The notes under the pieces were generated by a model, which ran no database searches, was not told the origin of the DNA, and was given only the letters and a program-made list of their open reading frames with translations. From assembly GCF_018141425.1 (NCBI RefSeq), contig NZ_CP058561.1:1860001-1924000 (forward strand): a stretch of 64,000 bases of DNA, read 5' to 3'. Numbering within the stretch: the first letter of the stretch is position 1; each line of letters starts with the position of its first letter. The position numbers and the translations under genes are program-made. Positions 2,232 to 45,346 of the stretch are shown in pieces. This stretch comes from Vallitalea guaymasensis. GTDB lineage: Bacteria; Bacillota; Clostridia; Lachnospirales; Vallitaleaceae.

Positions 2232-3983
2232 TTATCTTACATATATTTTCATTATTCCTAATTCCTTACCTTCACTTTCTCCATATGGTTTTATGGTATA
2301 AGCACCAACACTAGCAGGAACTATGAATGTTTCAGCATAATGTACAACGAATGGCTGGAATCTATTTTCAGGACTTTCTACTATAGCTTCTCTTCCTTCT
2401 ACTAGATTCAATACATTCACTCCACCTTCAGTATTAAGTGATACTTTTTCACTAAACCAATATCTCCTGGTTTCAATGAATTCTCTTTCGTGAAGTCCTG
2501 TACGTTCTTGTCTCCATCCATTACCCTCATCAACTGGCTCAACTCTGTTAATAAGATTGTTTTTAACCCAATCAGTATCTCTGTCCCACTGAATTACTTG
2601 TTCTCCATGATTAATATGCACTGGACGAGGTTTTCCATCAAGTCCCAATCTTTCCCAGTCCCATAATTTGAATGTAAATATATAAGGAGTAGCACTAATC
2701 TCCAAGACCATACAATCATTACCTGAGCAATGAATTGTTCCTGCTGGTATTAAGAAATGATCATGTTTTTTGGCACCAAATTTATTTACATATTTTTCAT
2801 CAGGGAATGTTATATTGCCTTTTTCAGCTTCTTTTAGGTCATTAATGAGCGCTTCCTTGTCCACATTTTTCTGTACTCCTAGATATACATTGGCATTTTC
2901 CTTGGCATCAAGCATATAGTAACTCTCATCCTGAGTATAGTGCATACCAAACTTTTCTTGTATGTATTCAGTTAATGGATGTACTTGAAGGCTCAGATTC
3001 TGTCCTCCCATTGTATCAAGCATATCAACTCTTATAGGAAATTCTGTACCAAATCTTGAATGAACTTTTTCTCCTAATAATTGATGTGGATAGAAAAATA
3101 CAACATTGATTGAAGGTGTCTCAACAATTGTATCGCCATATTTTAAGTACAGGCTATTCTCTTCTGGTACACAGTCAAAACACCATGCAAAGTTTTCAGA
3201 ACTCTTATCTAAGTCGCAAACTTCTTTCATCCATTGTCCACCCCATACCCCTTTGTCAAAGTATGGAACAACTCTAAAAGGACCATTAACAGTTTCTTCC
3301 AAACCTGCTGTAAATGCCTTTTTAGTTATCATTTTAGGAGAGTTGGATTTATTTGTATCTAGTATATAATCTACATCCTTATACAGTTTTTTCTTTAATC
3401 TATCTGCCACTCTCCACTCTACGAAGAATCCTCTTTTATATTTCTTTAATAAATCCTCGTCGTAATTATCCATCTTCCAATTGGCTATTTCTTTTCTACG
3501 ATAGCGTAATTGTATTTCCCATCTTGCCAGATCAGCATATACTAAGATATCTCCTGTATCTATTATAGAAGCTCCTGTACCGTATACAAGTACAACCCCT
3601 GTTTTGATTCTTTCTATCTTTTGCCTCGCTTTATCAACTAGTGTTTCATCAAAAAACTCGTCCATGGTTCTACAGCTTAGAACTCCGAAAACCCTATCAT
3701 CTGTTAGTTCACGCTGAATCATATTAGTGATTGTATTTCCATCAAAACTATAATCATCAGCATCAATTAATAACTCTGGATTTAGTTTCTTTATAAAAGC
3801 TGTTAATACTTCTTCTTTGTTCACACCAGGATAACATTCAATAGTTACAACCGTCTTGCTTTTTCCATCAGTAGAAATTTTTCTTAATATTTCCTGGGAT
3901 ATTTCTTCGTAGCCAGTAAAAATTTCGTCTTCATATCCCTTAACCTGGACTACTGGTCTTTTGTCATAATTTGATTTGTACAT
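2232..3983 (-). CDS. Class I mannose-6-phosphate isomerase with N-terminal P-loop-like domain
   Basis: Predicted to interconvert mannose-6-P and fructose-6-P in the cytosol. The C-terminal half carries type I PMI zinc-site motifs: LSLQVHP (about residues 331-336), a DESYYML glutamate (about 352) and PAGTIHCSG (about 414-421). Ordinary bacterial enzymes are about 310-400 residues. Here, about 210 N-terminal residues resemble a uridine-kinase/phosphoribulokinase-like P-loop fold (LLIDADDYSFDG, VLVYGTGASII, DLARWEIQLRYRRKEI), but the Walker A position reads ECYPGVNKEEV and lacks the GxxGxGK pattern, so catalysis by it is doubtful. An upstream in-frame start at 4076 would overlap the kinase gene; ATGGAGG with GGAGG 5 bases before the ATG at 3983 supports the shorter 583-residue form. 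Same transcript as the ROK kinase, 71 bases apart. Confidence 0.85.
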   Translation of the reverse strand: MYKSNYDKRPVVQVKGYEDEIFTGYEEISQEILRKISTDGKSKTVVTIECYPGVNKEEVLTAFIKKLNPELLIDADDYSFDGNTITNMIQRELTDDRVFGVLSCRTMDEFFDETLVDKARQKIERIKTGVVLVYGTGASIIDTGDILVYADLARWEIQLRYRRKEIANWKMDNYDEDLLKKYKRGFFVEWRVADRLKKKLYKDVDYILDTNKSNSPKMITKKAFTAGLEETVNGPFRVVPYFDKGVWGGQWMKEVCDLDKSSENFAWCFDCVPEENSLYLKYGDTIVETPSINVVFFYPHQLLGEKVHSRFGTEFPIRVDMLDTMGGQNLSLQVHPLTEYIQEKFGMHYTQDESYYMLDAKENANVYLGVQKNVDKEALINDLKEAEKGNITFPDEKYVNKFGAKKHDHFLIPAGTIHCSGNDCMVLEISATPYIFTFKLWDWERLGLDGKPRPVHINHGEQVIQWDRDTDWVKNNLINRVEPVDEGNGWRQERTGLHEREFIETRRYWFSEKVSLNTEGGVNVLNLVEGREAIVESPENRFQPFVVHYAETFIVPASVGAYTIKPYGESEGKELGIMKIYVR

Positions 3984-4054: not shown

Positions 4055-4993
4055 CTATACAAATTGGTCTAAACAAGCCGCTCCAATAATTCCTGCATTA
4101 TTTCCCAATCCTGATGCAGTGATTTTAGGTAATTCCATTGATTTACAATATATATTCTCCTTAACGATTTTTCGGATAGGTTCTAGTATAAATTCTCCTT
4201 GCTTACTGATACCTCCTCCTATGACAATTCCTTCTGGATCTAATATGTTGACAATGTCAACGATTCCTTGAGCAACATTACTTATATACTTAACAAGAAC
4301 TTCATTAGCAGCTTTGTCACCATTATGTATTACGTCAAATATATTCCTACCATCTAATCTGCCAGAGGATTTCCTTTGCTTTTCTAATTCAGAATCAGGG
4401 TATTCGTCAGCCTTTTCATTAGCCATACGAATCAAAGCACTAACAGAACCATATGCTTCCCAGCACCCTTTTCGTCCACAAGTACATAATTCACCATTAT
4501 CAACCAACATTAAATGCCCTAAAATACTTGAGTTACCATTTTTACCACGATATAATGTATCGTCAATAATTATTCCTCCACCAATTCCAGTACCCAAAGT
4601 GACCATTACCATAGATGAATATTTTTTTCCTGCTCCAGCTATATATTCTCCTAAAGCAGCACAATTTGCATCATTTTCCAGGTATACTGGTATATGAAAG
4701 TATTTTTTCATAGCATCAATAAGATGTATATTTTCCCATCCAATATTATTGGAATATAGTACTATACCATTCTGTCTATCCAACATTCCTGGACATCCTA
4801 TCCCTATATGAGTAATATTTTTGATATCAGTTTTTTCAATCAGTTCATTTACTAGATTTGCCATTCTCTGTATAACTTTTTCTGGGGAATCTGAGCTATT
4901 TGTATCGGTTTGATTTCTATCAATGATTATGTTTTTCTCATCTACAATGCCTGCTGACATGGTTGTTCCACCCAAATCTATTCCTATTTTCAT
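4055..4993 (-). CDS. ROK-family sugar kinase (glucokinase/fructokinase type)
   Basis: 312 residues. The N-terminal phosphate-binding motif GIDLGGTT (4-11), the catalytic aspartate of ENDANCAA (Asp108), TLGTGIGGG (132-140), His160 in ILGHL, and the zinc knuckle CTCGRKGCWE (Cys170, 172, 177) are all those of an active ROK kinase. It should phosphorylate a hexose at C6 using ATP. Its place between a ROK repressor and mannose-6-P isomerase suggests mannose, fructose or glucose as substrate; motifs alone do not choose among them. An AAAGG ribosome site lies about 9 bases before the ATG. Confidence 0.9.
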   Translation of the reverse strand: MKIGIDLGGTTMSAGIVDEKNIIIDRNQTDTNSSDSPEKVIQRMANLVNELIEKTDIKNITHIGIGCPGMLDRQNGIVLYSNNIGWENIHLIDAMKKYFHIPVYLENDANCAALGEYIAGAGKKYSSMVMVTLGTGIGGGIIIDDTLYRGKNGNSSILGHLMLVDNGELCTCGRKGCWEAYGSVSALIRMANEKADEYPDSELEKQRKSSGRLDGRNIFDVIHNGDKAANEVLVKYISNVAQGIVDIVNILDPEGIVIGGGISKQGEFILEPIRKIVKENIYCKSMELPKITASGLGNNAGIIGAACLDQFV

Positions 4994-12223: not shown

Positions 12224-12616
12224 TTATCTCTTGGAAAATTGAGGTGCACGTCTTGCAGCCTTTAATCCATATTTCTTTCTTTCTTTCATTCTTGGGTCTC
12301 TTGTTAAGAAACCTGCTTTTTTAAGTGCTGGACGGAATTCATCATCAGCTTTTAATAAAGCTCTTGAGATTCCGTGACGGATAGCACCAGCTTGTCCAGT
12401 GAATCCACCACCATGAACATTAACGATAACATCAAATTTATCTGTTGTATGAGTTAATTCTAATGGTTGGCGTACTGTAACTTTTAAAGTTTCAAGTCCA
12501 CAGTAATTATCTATATCTCTTTTATTAATTGTAATTTTACCTGTTCCAGGTACTAAATATACTCTAGCAACACTATGCTTTCTACGACCTGTGCCATAAT
12601 ATTTTAATTGTGCCAC
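12224..12616 (-). CDS. rpsI: 30S ribosomal protein S9
   Basis: 130 residues, full length. It begins [19 protein letters not shown] and ends with the basic tail [16 protein letters not shown], whose last Lys-Arg reaches the P-site tRNA in known ribosomes. The signature [19 protein letters not shown] is present. It follows rplM by 27 bases, the usual pair. Confidence 0.98.
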
Positions 12617-13078: not shown

Positions 13079-13160
13079 CGAGTTCCCTCCTTATTCAGTT
13101 CCATTTCTCATGTATTATCAAAATCCGGGGCTAATGGATTTTAATTTACAATCTCACGAT
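13079..13160 (-). ncRNA. rplM 5' leader (candidate L13-leader)
   Basis: An ~80-nt transcript leader between the promoter and rplM. On the minus strand AAAATCC (13142-13136) and GGATTTT (13126-13120) form a perfect 7-bp stem with an ATTAGCCCC loop. L13 leaders that mediate feedback control are known in Firmicutes; I assign this by position and structure, not by a verified model match. Confidence 0.5.
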
Positions 13161-13165
13161 TCAAT

Positions 13166-13194
13166 ATTATAGTACATCCAACCTAGTGTGTCAA
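13166..13194 (-). promoter_or_regulatory. Consensus sigma-A promoter of rplM-rpsI
   Basis: Minus strand: TTGACA (13194-13189), a 17-base spacer, TATAAT (13171-13166). Both hexamers and the spacing are exact consensus. Confidence 0.9.
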
Positions 13195-13208: not shown

Positions 13209-13281
13209 TTATCCACATTTTTATGTGTTTTTTTATATTTATCCACAATTCGTATATGTTAATATTGGAAATTGTGGATAA
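13209..13281. promoter_or_regulatory. Cluster of three perfect DnaA boxes
   Basis: TTATCCACA occurs at 13209-13217 and 13239-13247 (plus strand) and as TGTGGATAA at 13273-13281. The second and third form a 13-bp inverted repeat (TTTATCCACAATT and its complement). The cluster lies 15-90 bases upstream of the rplM -35 box. TTATCCACA is the established high-affinity DnaA box. No dnaA/dnaN genes are here, so this is not obviously the origin; it could be a DnaA titration or regulatory cluster. Confidence 0.65.
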
Positions 13282-13300: not shown

Positions 13301-14446
13301 TTACACTTTATTATAATCCCCTTTAGCCATAAGCGCTGCTACTATTGCTGTTATCGGTATAGATATTATAAGGCCTATTGTACCAGCTAAAGCTCTAACT
13401 ATTTCTGTGGAGATTAATTCCATATTAACGATATCTACTAAGGTCATGTCATTTACCATAAATAACAACATTAAACACATTGATGTACCTGCATAAGCTA
13501 AAATAAGGGTATTAGACATAGTACCCATTACGTCTTTACCTATATTCATGCCTGATTTGAATAGTTGTCCCACTGTCATTAAAGGATTGTTATCTTTTAA
13601 CTCTTTTATTGATGAAGATATGGACATACAAACATCCATTACCGCACCTAATGTACCTAGTAGAATACTAGCAAACAATATTCCTTTAAAATCAAGATGC
13701 ATTGATTCTGTAGAGTACAAGAGCATCTGTGACTCTGATGTCTCAAGTCCAGATAAATTAGCATAATATCCAATTACAAGTGATATTGTTCCTGCTATTA
13801 TGACACCTGATAAGGTTCCTGCTATAGCCGCTATAGCTTTTTTATTAAACCCACCAATAATAAACATAGTTATAATCGTTACTACAATAGATACCATTAT
13901 AGATGTAACAACTGGATTCTGACCGTTTATTATACCTCTCAGCATATAATAAACACCTATAATAGTAATACCTAATGTAAATAGTGTCTTAACACCTTTT
14001 ATTCCACCCACGATAATGGTCAATAATATAAATGCTATAACTAGATAAATTAGATACTTGTCCCTCTTAACATTGGTTATATGACCTTGCAGTATATTTC
14101 CTTCTTCATCACGTTCAATACCAACATACAGCTCGTCTCCAACTTTTGCATCAAAACTATTAGCCATTATGCCGTCTACAGTATTGTATACTTCTATTAA
14201 CTTACCTTTTTCTTTACCTTTAGTAAGTTTTACCTTCAATACTTGTACTTTTTGTATGTAATCTCCGCCTGATGTCTCTAAGGTTTCATATTCATCTTTT
14301 ATAATTGCAATAACTTTACCGGGTATTACTTCTTCTTTATATACTTCCTCATCATATTCCTCGGTTGAGTCAGTTGCTCGTACACTACTTGTAAATAATC
14401 CAAAACAGAGTATCGTTGCTATTACAAATAATAATTTTTGTTTCAC
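13301..14446 (-). CDS. YibE/F-family membrane protein
   Basis: 381 residues: a signal peptide (about 1-24), an extracytoplasmic domain (about 25-128) and about seven membrane helices from residue 131 on, with the family-typical NNPLMTVGQLFKSGMNIGKD (about 285-304) and MGTMSNTLILAYAGTS. The family is conserved in Firmicutes but has no proven function; transport is often supposed. Start codon is GTG, set by AAGGAGGA 7 bases upstream. It is inserted 22 bases after truA, between truA and rplM, which are commonly neighbours in Clostridia. Confidence 0.88.
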   Translation of the reverse strand: MKQKLLFVIATILCFGLFTSSVRATDSTEEYDEEVYKEEVIPGKVIAIIKDEYETLETSGGDYIQKVQVLKVKLTKGKEKGKLIEVYNTVDGIMANSFDAKVGDELYVGIERDEEGNILQGHITNVKRDKYLIYLVIAFILLTIIVGGIKGVKTLFTLGITIIGVYYMLRGIINGQNPVVTSIMVSIVVTIITMFIIGGFNKKAIAAIAGTLSGVIIAGTISLVIGYYANLSGLETSESQMLLYSTESMHLDFKGILFASILLGTLGAVMDVCMSISSSIKELKDNNPLMTVGQLFKSGMNIGKDVMGTMSNTLILAYAGTSMCLMLLFMVNDMTLVDIVNMELISTEIVRALAGTIGLIISIPITAIVAALMAKGDYNKV

Positions 14447-21295: not shown

Positions 21296-21602
21296 GTGTA
21301 CTTCACACCTCCGTTTTTTAAGATAAGGAATGAATAATAATCTAATGCGGTGAAATATTAGATAATATTATCCCAACATATTTGCTTCACAATATTAAAT
21401 GATTTAGTGAGAATCATTTAATTGTCATTTTTTTAATTTTGTGCAATAACTTACTAGAACAACACATCCTGGTGAGTCATTACTCAGCCGCTTATATCTT
21501 ACTTTTTAAAATTATCATTATGACAATCTCAAAAATGTAATTCATAATTAATCATTAGGGTATTTTATATTTTCAACCCTAATTTTGTGCATAATATCAC
21601 AA
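21296..21602 (-). ncRNA. Long structured 5' leader of rpsM
   Basis: Some 300 bases between the rpsM promoter and start, with no gene. Stems seen: an 11-bp stem at 21394-21404/21412-21422, TTAGGGT/ACCCTAA (21555-21561/21576-21582), and TGAGT/ACTCA near 21473-21486. The motif TGCACAAAATT occurs twice on the minus strand (21445-21435, 21591-21581). Alpha-operon leaders bound by S4 are known, but I cannot match this one to a model. Confidence 0.45.
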
Positions 21603-41785: not shown

Positions 41786-44700
41786 CTATTCTTCAAAGAG
41801 AACGTCGTCAATTAATGGTTCATCTTCAACGTATTTTTCAATTCCAACATTTCGGTATCGTTCCATACCTGTACCAGCTGGAATAAGTTTACCGATGATT
41901 ACGTTTTCTTTTAATCCGATTAGAGGATCTGATTTACCTTTTATTGCAGCTTCTGTCAAGACTTTTGTAGTCTCTTGGAAAGATGCTGCTGACAAGAATG
42001 AATTAGTTGCCAAGGATGCTTTTGTTATACCGAGCATAACTTGAGTTCCTTCTGCTGATTCCAAACCATTGCTAGCAAGTTCTTCATTGATCTTTTCAAA
42101 CTCTAACCTATCAACTAGGCTTCCTGGTAAGAAATCACTATCACCACTATTTTCTATTCTTATTTTCTTTAACATCTGTCTAACAATAACCTCTATATGC
42201 TTATCGTTAATTTCCACACCTTGAAGTCTATAAACACGCTGAACTTCTTGAAGCATGTAGTCTTGAACACTTCTGCTACCTTTGATTTTCAAGATATCAT
42301 GTGGGTTAACACTACCTTCTGTCAACTCGTCACCGGCTTCAATTACATCCCCATCCATTACCTTGATTCTTGAACCATATGGTATTAGATAAGCTTTGCT
42401 TTCGCCAGTTTCTTCGTTTGTGATTACTACTTCACGTTTTTTACGTGTATCATTTATTCTAGCTAATCCACCAAATTCAGCAATTATAGCTAATCCTTTT
42501 GGTTTTCTAGCCTCAAAGAGTTCCTCTACACGAGGAAGACCTTGTGTTATATCGTCTCCAGCAATACCACCTGTATGGAAAGTACGCATTGTAAGCTGTG
42601 TACCTGGTTCTCCGATTGATTGTGCTGCAATAATACCAACAGACTCCCCTACTTGAACAGGTAATCCAGTTGCCATATTAGAACCATAGCATTTTGCACA
42701 AACTCCTATTTCTGATCTACAAGTAAGAACAGTTCTTATATGAACTTTATCAATACCTGCATCCACAACAGCTTTTGCTTTTAATGGTGTAATAAGAGTA
42801 TCTTGTTCAACTATAATCTCACCAGTTTCTGGATGTTTTATTTCATCAACAGACCATCTGCCAGTGATTCTTTCTTGTAGACTTTCAATTACTTCATTAC
42901 CATCTTTGAATGCTGTTATCCACATACCTGGAGCATTGTCTTTATCACAGCAATCATGTTCTCTAATGATTAAGTCTTGAGAAACATCTACAAGTCTTCT
43001 TGTTAAATATCCTGAATCGGCAGTACGAAGCGCAGTATCAGCAAGTCCTTTTCTAGCACCGTGAGCGGAAATAAAGTATTCAAGAACGTCTAGTCCTTCA
43101 CGGAAGTTAGATTTGATTGGTAATTCGATAGTCTTACCAGATGTATCCGCCATAAGTCCACGCATACCACCTAACTGCTTAATCTGCTTATCAGAACCTC
43201 TGGCTCCAGAGTCAGCCATCATGAAGATATTATTATATTTTCCAAGTCCGCCAAGTAAGGCTTCTGTAATTGTATCGTCTGCATTTTTCCATGTTTCAAT
43301 AACTTTTAAACGTCTTTCTTCATTAGTCATGAATCCACGTTTAAATTGCTTTGTTATCTTCTCTACTGTTTCTTCTGCATTCTTAAGTATTTCTTTTTTG
43401 CTTGCAGGTACTTCCATATCTGAAACAGATACAGTTAATGCACCTCTAGTAGAGTATTTGAAACCAAGTTTCTTAATGCCATCAAGAACTTCTGATGTCT
43501 TGGTTGAACCATGGGTATTGATACATCTATATAGTATATCTTTTAATTGCTTTTTACCTACTAAGAAATCAATTTCATATTTGAATTTGTCTTCTGGTTT
43601 AGTTCTAGTCGCAAAACCAAGATCTTGTGGTATTGCTTCATTAAATATAATTCTACCAACAGAAGTTTCAACAAATTGTTGTTTAACTTCGCCTTCTATT
43701 TCCATTGTTCTTCTTACATATACCTTTGCATGTAAAGTTACTTCTCCGTTTTCATATGCAAGCATAGCTTCATTTTCATCTTTGAAATAGTAACCTTCAC
43801 CTTTTTCTCCCTCTTTTTCAAGAGTAAGATAGTAAGTACCAAGGACCATATCCTGTGAAGGAACAGATACTGGAGCACCATCTGAAGGCTTCAATAAGTT
43901 ATTAGGTGAAAGAAGTAAAAATCTACATTCAGCTTGTGCTTCTACTGATAATGGTACATGGACAGCCATCTGGTCACCATCAAAGTCGGCATTATAAGCT
44001 GTACAAACTAAAGGATGAAGCTTGATAGCCTTTCCTTCTACTAATACAGGTTCAAATGCTTGAATACCTAAACGGTGAAGTGTAGGAGCACGGTTAAGCA
44101 TAACAGGATGCTCTTTGATAACTTCTTCCAATACATCCCATACGTCTGATTCTAATCTTTCAACCATTTTTTTAGCTGATTTTATATTATGAGCTAAACC
44201 ATCACTAACTAATTTTTTCATCACAAATGGTTTAAACAGTTCAATTGCCATCTCTTTTGGTAAACCACACTGGAATATCTTAAGTTCCGGACCTACAACG
44301 ATAACTGAACGTCCTGAGTAGTCAACACGTTTACCCAACAAGTTTTGTCTGAAACGTCCTTGCTTACCTTTTAACATATCAGATAATGATTTTAATGGTC
44401 TATTACCTGGTCCTGTTACTGGTCTACCTCTTCTACCATTGTCTATTAGTGCATCTACCGCTTCTTGAAGCATTCTTTTTTCATTACGTACAATAATGTC
44501 AGGTGCTCCAAGATCAAGTAATCTTTTAAGTCTATTATTTCTATTTATAACTCTTCTGTATAAATCATTCAAGTCAGATGTAGCAAATCTTCCACCATCC
44601 AATTGAACCATTGGTCTAAGATCAGGTGGGATAACTGGAACAACCTCCATAATCATCCATTCTGGCTTGTTGTTGGATTTGAAAAAAGCATCTACTACTT

Positions 44701-45346
44701 CTAATCTTTTTATTATTCTTGCTCTCTTTTGTCCTGAGGACTCTCTTAGAGCTTTTCTTAATTCAATTGATTCTTTTTCCAATTGAATATTAGCTAATAT
44801 TTCTTTTATAGATTCTGCTCCCATACCAGCTCTAAATTTATTGCCGTATTTTTCATAAGCATCTCTATATTCTTTTTCTGTCAAGATTTGTTTATATTGT
44901 AATCCTGTTTCACCAGGATCTATTACAATATATGACGCAAAGTATAATACTTTTTCAAGAGTTCTTGGAGATAAGTCAAGGATTAATCCCATTCTACTTG
45001 GAATACCTTTAAAATACCATATGTGAGATACAGGCGCTGCTAATTCAATGTGTCCCATTCTTTCTCTACGTACTTTGGACTTTGTTACCTCAACACCACA
45101 ACGATCACATACTACACCTTTATATCGTATTTTTTTGTACTTACCGCAATGACACTCCCAATCTTTGCTAGGTCCAAATATCTTTTCACAGAACAAACCA
45201 TCTCTTTCTGGTTTTAGCGTCCTGTAGTTAATTGTTTCAGGTTTCTTTACTTCTCCCTTTGACCATTCCCTAATTCTTTCAGGAGATGCTAAGCCAATCT
45301 TAATAGCATCAAAGCTTACTGATTGCTCTATATTCTCGTTTGGCAC
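41786..45346 (-). CDS. rpoC: RNA polymerase beta' subunit
   Basis: 1186 residues. Zinc site [19 protein letters not shown] near residues 60-79, the absolutely conserved [12 protein letters not shown] that holds the catalytic magnesium, the bridge-helix region [18 protein letters not shown], and the second zinc site [13 protein letters not shown]. Follows rpoB by 17 bases. Confidence 0.99.

Follow-up and report, generated by a model that had tools for sequence, protein, structure and literature searches.

The promoter of the ribosomal protein operon rplM-rpsI in Vallitalea guaymasensis is adjoined on its upstream side by three exact copies of the DnaA box TTATCCACA. The boxes are probably real, being kept in some close relatives while the intervening DNA changes, and it is highly likely that DnaA binds them. 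We judge the chances to be about even that they constitute a lineage-specific extra-oriC DnaA-binding cluster that controls the rplM-rpsI promoter from its upstream side. The window referred to below is the whole 64,000-nucleotide stretch that was analysed, bases 1,860,001-1,924,000 of the 5.63-Mb chromosome.

The DnaA boxes and the rplM-rpsI promoter

The box nearest the promoter, box 1, occupies positions 13209-13217 on the plus strand, 14 bp upstream of the rplM -35 element. Box 2 lies at 13239-13247 on the plus strand and box 3, an inverted but equally exact copy, at 13273-13281 on the minus strand, with start-to-start distances of 30 and then 34. The initial annotation had described three exact copies in 73 bases, two direct with a spacing of 30 and one inverted, and this arrangement is confirmed. 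Counted from a transcription start inferred to be some seven bases past the -10, the box centres fall at approximately -54, -84 and -118. Boxes 2 and 3 together read TTATCCACA-N25-TGTGGATAA, a spacing that is also present at oriC.

The adjacent promoter (13166-13194, minus strand) has the form TTGACA-N17-TATAAT and, as had been stated in the initial annotation, is a consensus promoter; it agrees at 12 of 12 positions and is kept in the genus. The -35 begins at 13194, the -10 finishes at 13166, and neither is overlapped by any of the three boxes. Profile matches identify the genes that it serves as rplM, encoding ribosomal protein L13 (12644-13078, minus strand; TIGR01066, 214.8 bits, E 3.6e-64), and rpsI, encoding S9 (12224-12616, minus strand; NF001099, 198.2 bits, E 4.8e-59). 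The boxes occupy the spacer between this pair and the upstream gene on the same strand, which encodes a YibE/F family membrane protein (13301-14446, minus strand; PF07907, E 1.6e-78). The L13 sequence is 97% identical to a protein from a Vallitalea MAG, the closest named sequence among the matches listed, from which near-identical records may have been left out.

The rplM 5' UTR carries a hairpin, AAAATCC-ATTAGCCCC-GGATTTT (13120-13142, minus strand), that recurs upstream of rplM in relatives. A pattern search found the leader motif AGCCCCGG, a part of this short hairpin, before rplM in many genomes of the order. A search of the rplM upstream and leader region against Rfam gave nothing at the gathering threshold and two weak, irrelevant matches with E values up to 5. 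The leader hairpin is possibly a separate layer of L13 control.

Exact boxes are absent from the other ribosomal protein promoters in the 64,000-nucleotide window. The initial annotation had seen no further exact copy in the window; there is in fact a fourth, at 42916, within a 1186-codon ORF (41786-45346) that we read by eye as rpoC, and the oversight is harmless. A single TTATGCACA occurs at 21586-21594 in a ribosomal protein spacer of the same window. The B. subtilis consensus permits any base at position 5, and this lone copy is probably a chance occurrence.

Distribution of boxes on the chromosome and likeness to oriC

The four exact boxes in the window compare with 0.93 expected, and as many were reached in one of 100 shuffles. 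With one mismatch permitted 25 boxes are observed and 25.0 expected; since the two are equal, the signal lies in the clustering of boxes. The chromosome as a whole has 109 exact boxes against 111 occurrences of the reversed word, and hence no global excess. The surroundings of all 109 were read: 83 are inside ORFs of at least 110 codons and 26 are outside such ORFs. Eighteen of the latter fall in seven groups, namely oriC (seven exact boxes), rplM (three), tdk (three), murC-dnaD (two), hpf, thyA-folA and rsgA (one each). Outside oriC, rplM is the sole place among all 109 sites where three exact boxes lie within 100 bp. If boxes with one mismatch are included, the murC-dnaD and hpf clusters exceed the rplM cluster in size. 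Many equally dense clusters, which the initial annotation had said would count against it, are not seen, only a handful of clusters being comparable. With at least three consensus boxes grouped more tightly than chance predicts at a place other than oriC, the rplM cluster resembles the extra-oriC type known from B. subtilis.

The origin itself (2443821-2444097) has its seven exact boxes in 277 bp directly upstream of dnaA (TIGR00362, 568 bits). Because the gene beside these boxes is dnaA, the DnaA of Vallitalea guaymasensis very likely binds TTATCCACA. An rpmH-like ORF of 44 codons (locus L102, 3437-3571) is found beside the oriC boxes, which start at 3822 in that locus. With oriC at 2.444 Mb and rplM at 1.873 Mb the two are 571 kb apart, and the rplM cluster was rejected as a candidate replication origin, the seven-box site adjacent to dnaA being that distant.

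When six genomes of the genus were searched for inverted pairs of exact boxes at gaps between 15 and 45, seven places emerged, and the gap was 25 in all of them. Two are at rplM, in G000 and G005, and the other five at oriC in as many genomes, the oriC call depending on neighbouring genes in G000, G001 and G002 and on sequence likeness in G003 and G005. For direct pairs of exact boxes, at gaps between 10 and 40, the places are oriC or sequences like it, rplM (G000, G001 and G004), the hpf upstream region (G001) and the inside of an ORF (G002), compared with one occurrence of the reversed pattern. The rplM cluster and the origin of the genus thus have an arrangement in common.

Conservation within the genus

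The six genomes compared, G000 to G005, differ in what stands upstream of rplM. There are three exact boxes in G000, two exact and one mismatched in G001 and in G005, and two exact in G004; G002 and G003 have none, and in G003 the yibE/F gene stops almost at the rplM -35. Conservation in relatives, on which the initial annotation had set store, is thus real in four of the six and stops inside the genus. Box 1 is exact in G000, G001 and G004 and has one mismatch in G005, while box 2 is exact in all four. Box 3 is exact in G000 and G005, mismatched at one base in G001 and missing from G004. The distance from box 1 to the -35 is 14 bp in G000, G001 and G004 and 15 bp in G005, a fixed place relative to the promoter in the four genomes having box 1, and G004 retains both promoter-side boxes despite a longer spacer and the loss of box 3.

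When the four genomes are aligned, 17 of the 18 columns in boxes 1 and 2 do not vary, nor do four of the nine in box 3. Between box 3 and the -35 the spacers have 24 invariant columns out of 63, and between box 2 and the -35 they have 18 out of 37 (Fisher p 2e-5 and 9e-4, respectively, against boxes 1 and 2, in a test that counts columns as independent). In the three genomes having all boxes, 25 of the 27 columns in boxes are invariant, as are 35 of the 63 in spacers. Selection thus seems to act on the rplM boxes in part of one genus.

An unrooted tree of the dnaD-like proteins groups G000, G005, G001 and then G003 (node support 0.59), with G004 and G002 outside. Given this placement of G003, the simplest story would be that the genus gained the rplM boxes and G003 afterwards lost them. 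The boxes are dispensable in the genus, since G002 and G003 do without them.

Other extra-oriC clusters in the genus

The rplM-rpsI cluster is one of a small set. Between murC and a gene encoding a DnaD-domain protein there is a module of boxes (G000 2715500-2716050; locus L104, 2000-2560) at corresponding distances in each of the six genus genomes, with exact head-to-tail doublets in every genome except G000. This module, whose boxes lie 245-491 bp before the dnaD-like gene, is better conserved than the rplM cluster. The cluster upstream of the thymidine kinase gene tdk (G000 2346795-2347030; locus L103, 1796-2031) is kept in four of the five genomes with tdk; in G003, one of those keeping it, the tdk match is interrupted by a stop.

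Upstream of hpf, a gene with Pfam S30AE domains, six box-like sites are spaced identically in both genomes in which the site was seen (G000, locus L225, 1384-1505, near 3545046; G001, locus L175, 1774-1895). The hpf promoter region also resembles a sigma-H promoter. A weaker cluster of two exact boxes and one near box marks the junction of thyA and a dihydrofolate reductase-like gene, folA (locus L106, 1680-1741). Just upstream of rsgA, encoding a ribosome-assembly GTPase, one exact and two one-mismatch boxes are present (locus L192, 1491-1552). By a rough estimate the rsgA cluster is near the level expected for 109 exact boxes and could be due to chance. Conservation was seen for four clusters, two of them at ribosome genes, a pattern that was spotted after the fact.

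Upstream regions outside the genus

The rplM gene was found in 21 of 22 genomes of the family. Fifteen of these 21 are from outside the genus; one upstream region among these carries a run of N and was set aside, and the 14 that are readable have no exact box within 350 bases upstream of rplM. A wider collection of 141 upstream regions was reduced to 131 distinct ones by dropping nine duplicates and one with N. Outside the genus, three of these have a pair of boxes within 100 bp, those of Niameybacter (L014), Sporanaerobium (L030) and G046 (L138). The last of these, from another family of the order, has four box-like sites in approximately 80 bp upstream of rplM.

Two loci of incomplete length were dropped and the statistics therefore concern 129 regions. 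Allowing up to one mismatch, a pair within 100 bp is present in four of six regions from the genus and in three of the 123 others, for which the shuffle mean is 0.29. Boxes in the same 123 regions total 24, where shuffling gives a mean of 13.2; at first sight this suggested convergence. In a control on 78 named loci, upstream regions have 13 boxes in 27.2 kb (0.477 per kb) and other non-coding DNA has 18 in 39.7 kb (0.454 per kb), the latter value being swayed by one locus, L011, with a seven-box cluster. A box rule across Clostridia is not supported and we claim none outside the genus, because control non-coding DNA carries as many boxes per kb. The L011 cluster (4754-4903, four boxes exact), from Clostridium sp. 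Cult2, sits between two genes identified by eye, one amidase-like and downstream of rpsI, the other gcvT-like.

A scan of 392 genomes across the order for one box 8-38 bp before TTGACA, together with a CCCCGG leader, matched seven genomes, and the reversed pattern matched one. The seven are G000, G001 and G004 of the genus and G094, G381, G256 and G211. The sequence matched in G381 resembles rplM-type leaders and those in G256 and G211 were judged by eye to be unrelated. G005 was missed because its proximal box is mismatched.

Comparison with known systems

A cluster of DnaA boxes outside oriC is already known as a kind; it is the rplM-rpsI target that is unusual. The extra-origin clusters of B. 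subtilis are ywcI-vpr, gcp-ydiF, trmE-jag, ywlC-ywlB, yqeG-sda and yydA-yyzF, several of which DnaA uses to influence transcription, according to one study (PMC4447404). Like the rplM cluster these bring together several boxes away from the origin of a Bacillota genome. They have 4 to 11 predicted sites per 300 bp, however, compared with three at rplM, and in Table 1 of that study none of the top 20 regions is at rplM, the ribosomal protein genes there being rpmH and rplB (PMC4447404).

The same source describes rpmH as adjoining dnaA at oriC, rplB as bound inside the gene, and DnaA as an activator of sda that appears to repress ywlC, trmE-noc and others (PMC4447404). At sda, as at rplM, boxes lie upstream of a promoter, and DnaA is a transcription factor there (PMC4447404). 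The two differ in that sda inhibits entry into sporulation and has eight predicted sites (PMC4447404), whereas the putative target at rplM is a ribosomal protein operon. A further likeness is rpmH, encoding L34, a ribosomal protein gene with boxes upstream both in B. subtilis (PMC4447404) and in Vallitalea guaymasensis. There the boxes are the origin itself, whereas those of rplM are far removed from it. The initial annotation had called a coupling of L13 and S9 synthesis to DnaA unusual, which holds insofar as the cluster is separate and 571 kb from the origin, but rpmH beside oriC is a precedent. In E. coli datA and DARS are, similarly, groups of boxes outside the origin that affect DnaA (PMC5295017). 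By contrast with the rplM cluster, datA spans approximately 1 kb, has five high-affinity boxes and needs IHF. Loci of the datA and DARS kind are marked by an IHF or Fis site and a set order of boxes that promotes ATP hydrolysis or nucleotide exchange. A literature search of partial coverage recognised no report of DnaA boxes at rplM, the terms 'DnaA box' and 'rplM' occurring together in one paper, PMC5987646, and no report of an extra-oriC DnaA cluster was found in partially covered literature on Vallitalea and Clostridium.

Alternative explanations

Could AT-rich words simply happen to match the box? The parity of the box with its reversed word on the chromosome, and one-mismatch boxes at expectation in the window, fit such an accident. 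It is nonetheless extremely improbable, since 109 sites scattered at random gave a triple this tight in one of 20,000 trials, boxes 1 and 2 persist in four genomes as the spacers diverge, and the six rplM upstream regions of the genus hold nine exact boxes against a shuffle mean of 0.03. Boxes 2 and 3 also form a 12-bp inverted repeat, which might be an RNA hairpin or terminator of the yibE/F gene. The transcript folds better than its shuffles in G000 (z -3.7) and G005 (z -3.3), but not in G001 (z -1.1) or G004 (z 0.4), where boxes 1 and 2 remain. A terminator fails to explain the conservation because the fold is missing in those two genomes; in addition no T run follows on the minus strand and Rfam offers no match at gathering. 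We reject this reading as highly improbable. Another regulator with a DnaA-like word is suggested by the mutual inversion of two boxes, as in many dimer sites. It is very unlikely, however, as the word is identical to the repeats at oriC beside dnaA, and two direct copies and one inverted copy at 30 and 34 bp do not make a compact dimer site.

The boxes might instead lower free DnaA and so time initiation at oriC, the promoter being incidental. We regard such titration as the main rival and a serious possibility, albeit somewhat short of an even chance. B. subtilis lacking all six extra-origin clusters initiated early, yet the same clusters are held to have no significant role in initiation (PMC5295017). 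Several clusters of the genus, such as murC-dnaD in six of six genomes and tdk in four of five, resemble a dispersed set, and loss from G002 and G003 suits a redundant sink. The sink would be small, with two to three boxes against seven exact at oriC. The promoter distance that is fixed in four genomes and the retention of two promoter-side boxes in G004 make us lean towards control of rplM-rpsI. Counting against promoter control, the rplM promoter is already a perfect consensus, box 3 is weakly conserved and two genomes lack the boxes; nearness to the promoter may be incidental at rplM, because the murC-dnaD boxes stand hundreds of bases from their gene. Sequence by itself does not distinguish titration from regulation.

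A proposed model for DnaA control of rplM-rpsI

In the reading preferred here, the cluster would have arisen within the Vallitalea lineage and would control rplM-rpsI. DnaA would occupy two or three boxes on roughly one face of the helix, given spacings of 30 and 34 bp, leaving the -35 and -10 uncovered, and its level or nucleotide state would then adjust transcription of the L13 and S9 genes. The cluster would also hold a few DnaA molecules. Our guess slightly favours activation or mild modulation over a plain block, given that the boxes sit on the upstream side of the promoter and do not overlap it. That the boxes are DnaA sites, as the initial annotation proposed, is well supported by the sevenfold occurrence of the same 9-mer at oriC and by the retention of boxes as spacers change; the coupling of L13 and S9 synthesis to DnaA is a prediction, and whether DnaA affects rplM-rpsI we infer to be evenly balanced.

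It has long been asked how bacteria match ribosome synthesis to chromosome replication. A conserved cluster at a ribosomal protein promoter, with a second upstream of hpf in the same genus, provides a concrete, testable case where the initiator of replication could directly influence ribosome genes. Were titration the sole function, the analysis would still have mapped several extra-oriC DnaA clusters for a genus of Clostridia. A broader and tentative idea, which we consider rather unlikely, is that DnaA in Vallitalea might be wired directly to rplM-rpsI and to hpf (ribosome hibernation), perhaps also to rsgA (30S maturation), beside the replication targets, the dnaD-like gene, thymidine kinase and possibly thyA-folA. 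If that were true, one replication initiator would tune both replication supply and ribosome capacity. The boxes upstream of rplM may thus tie ribosome production to chromosome replication.
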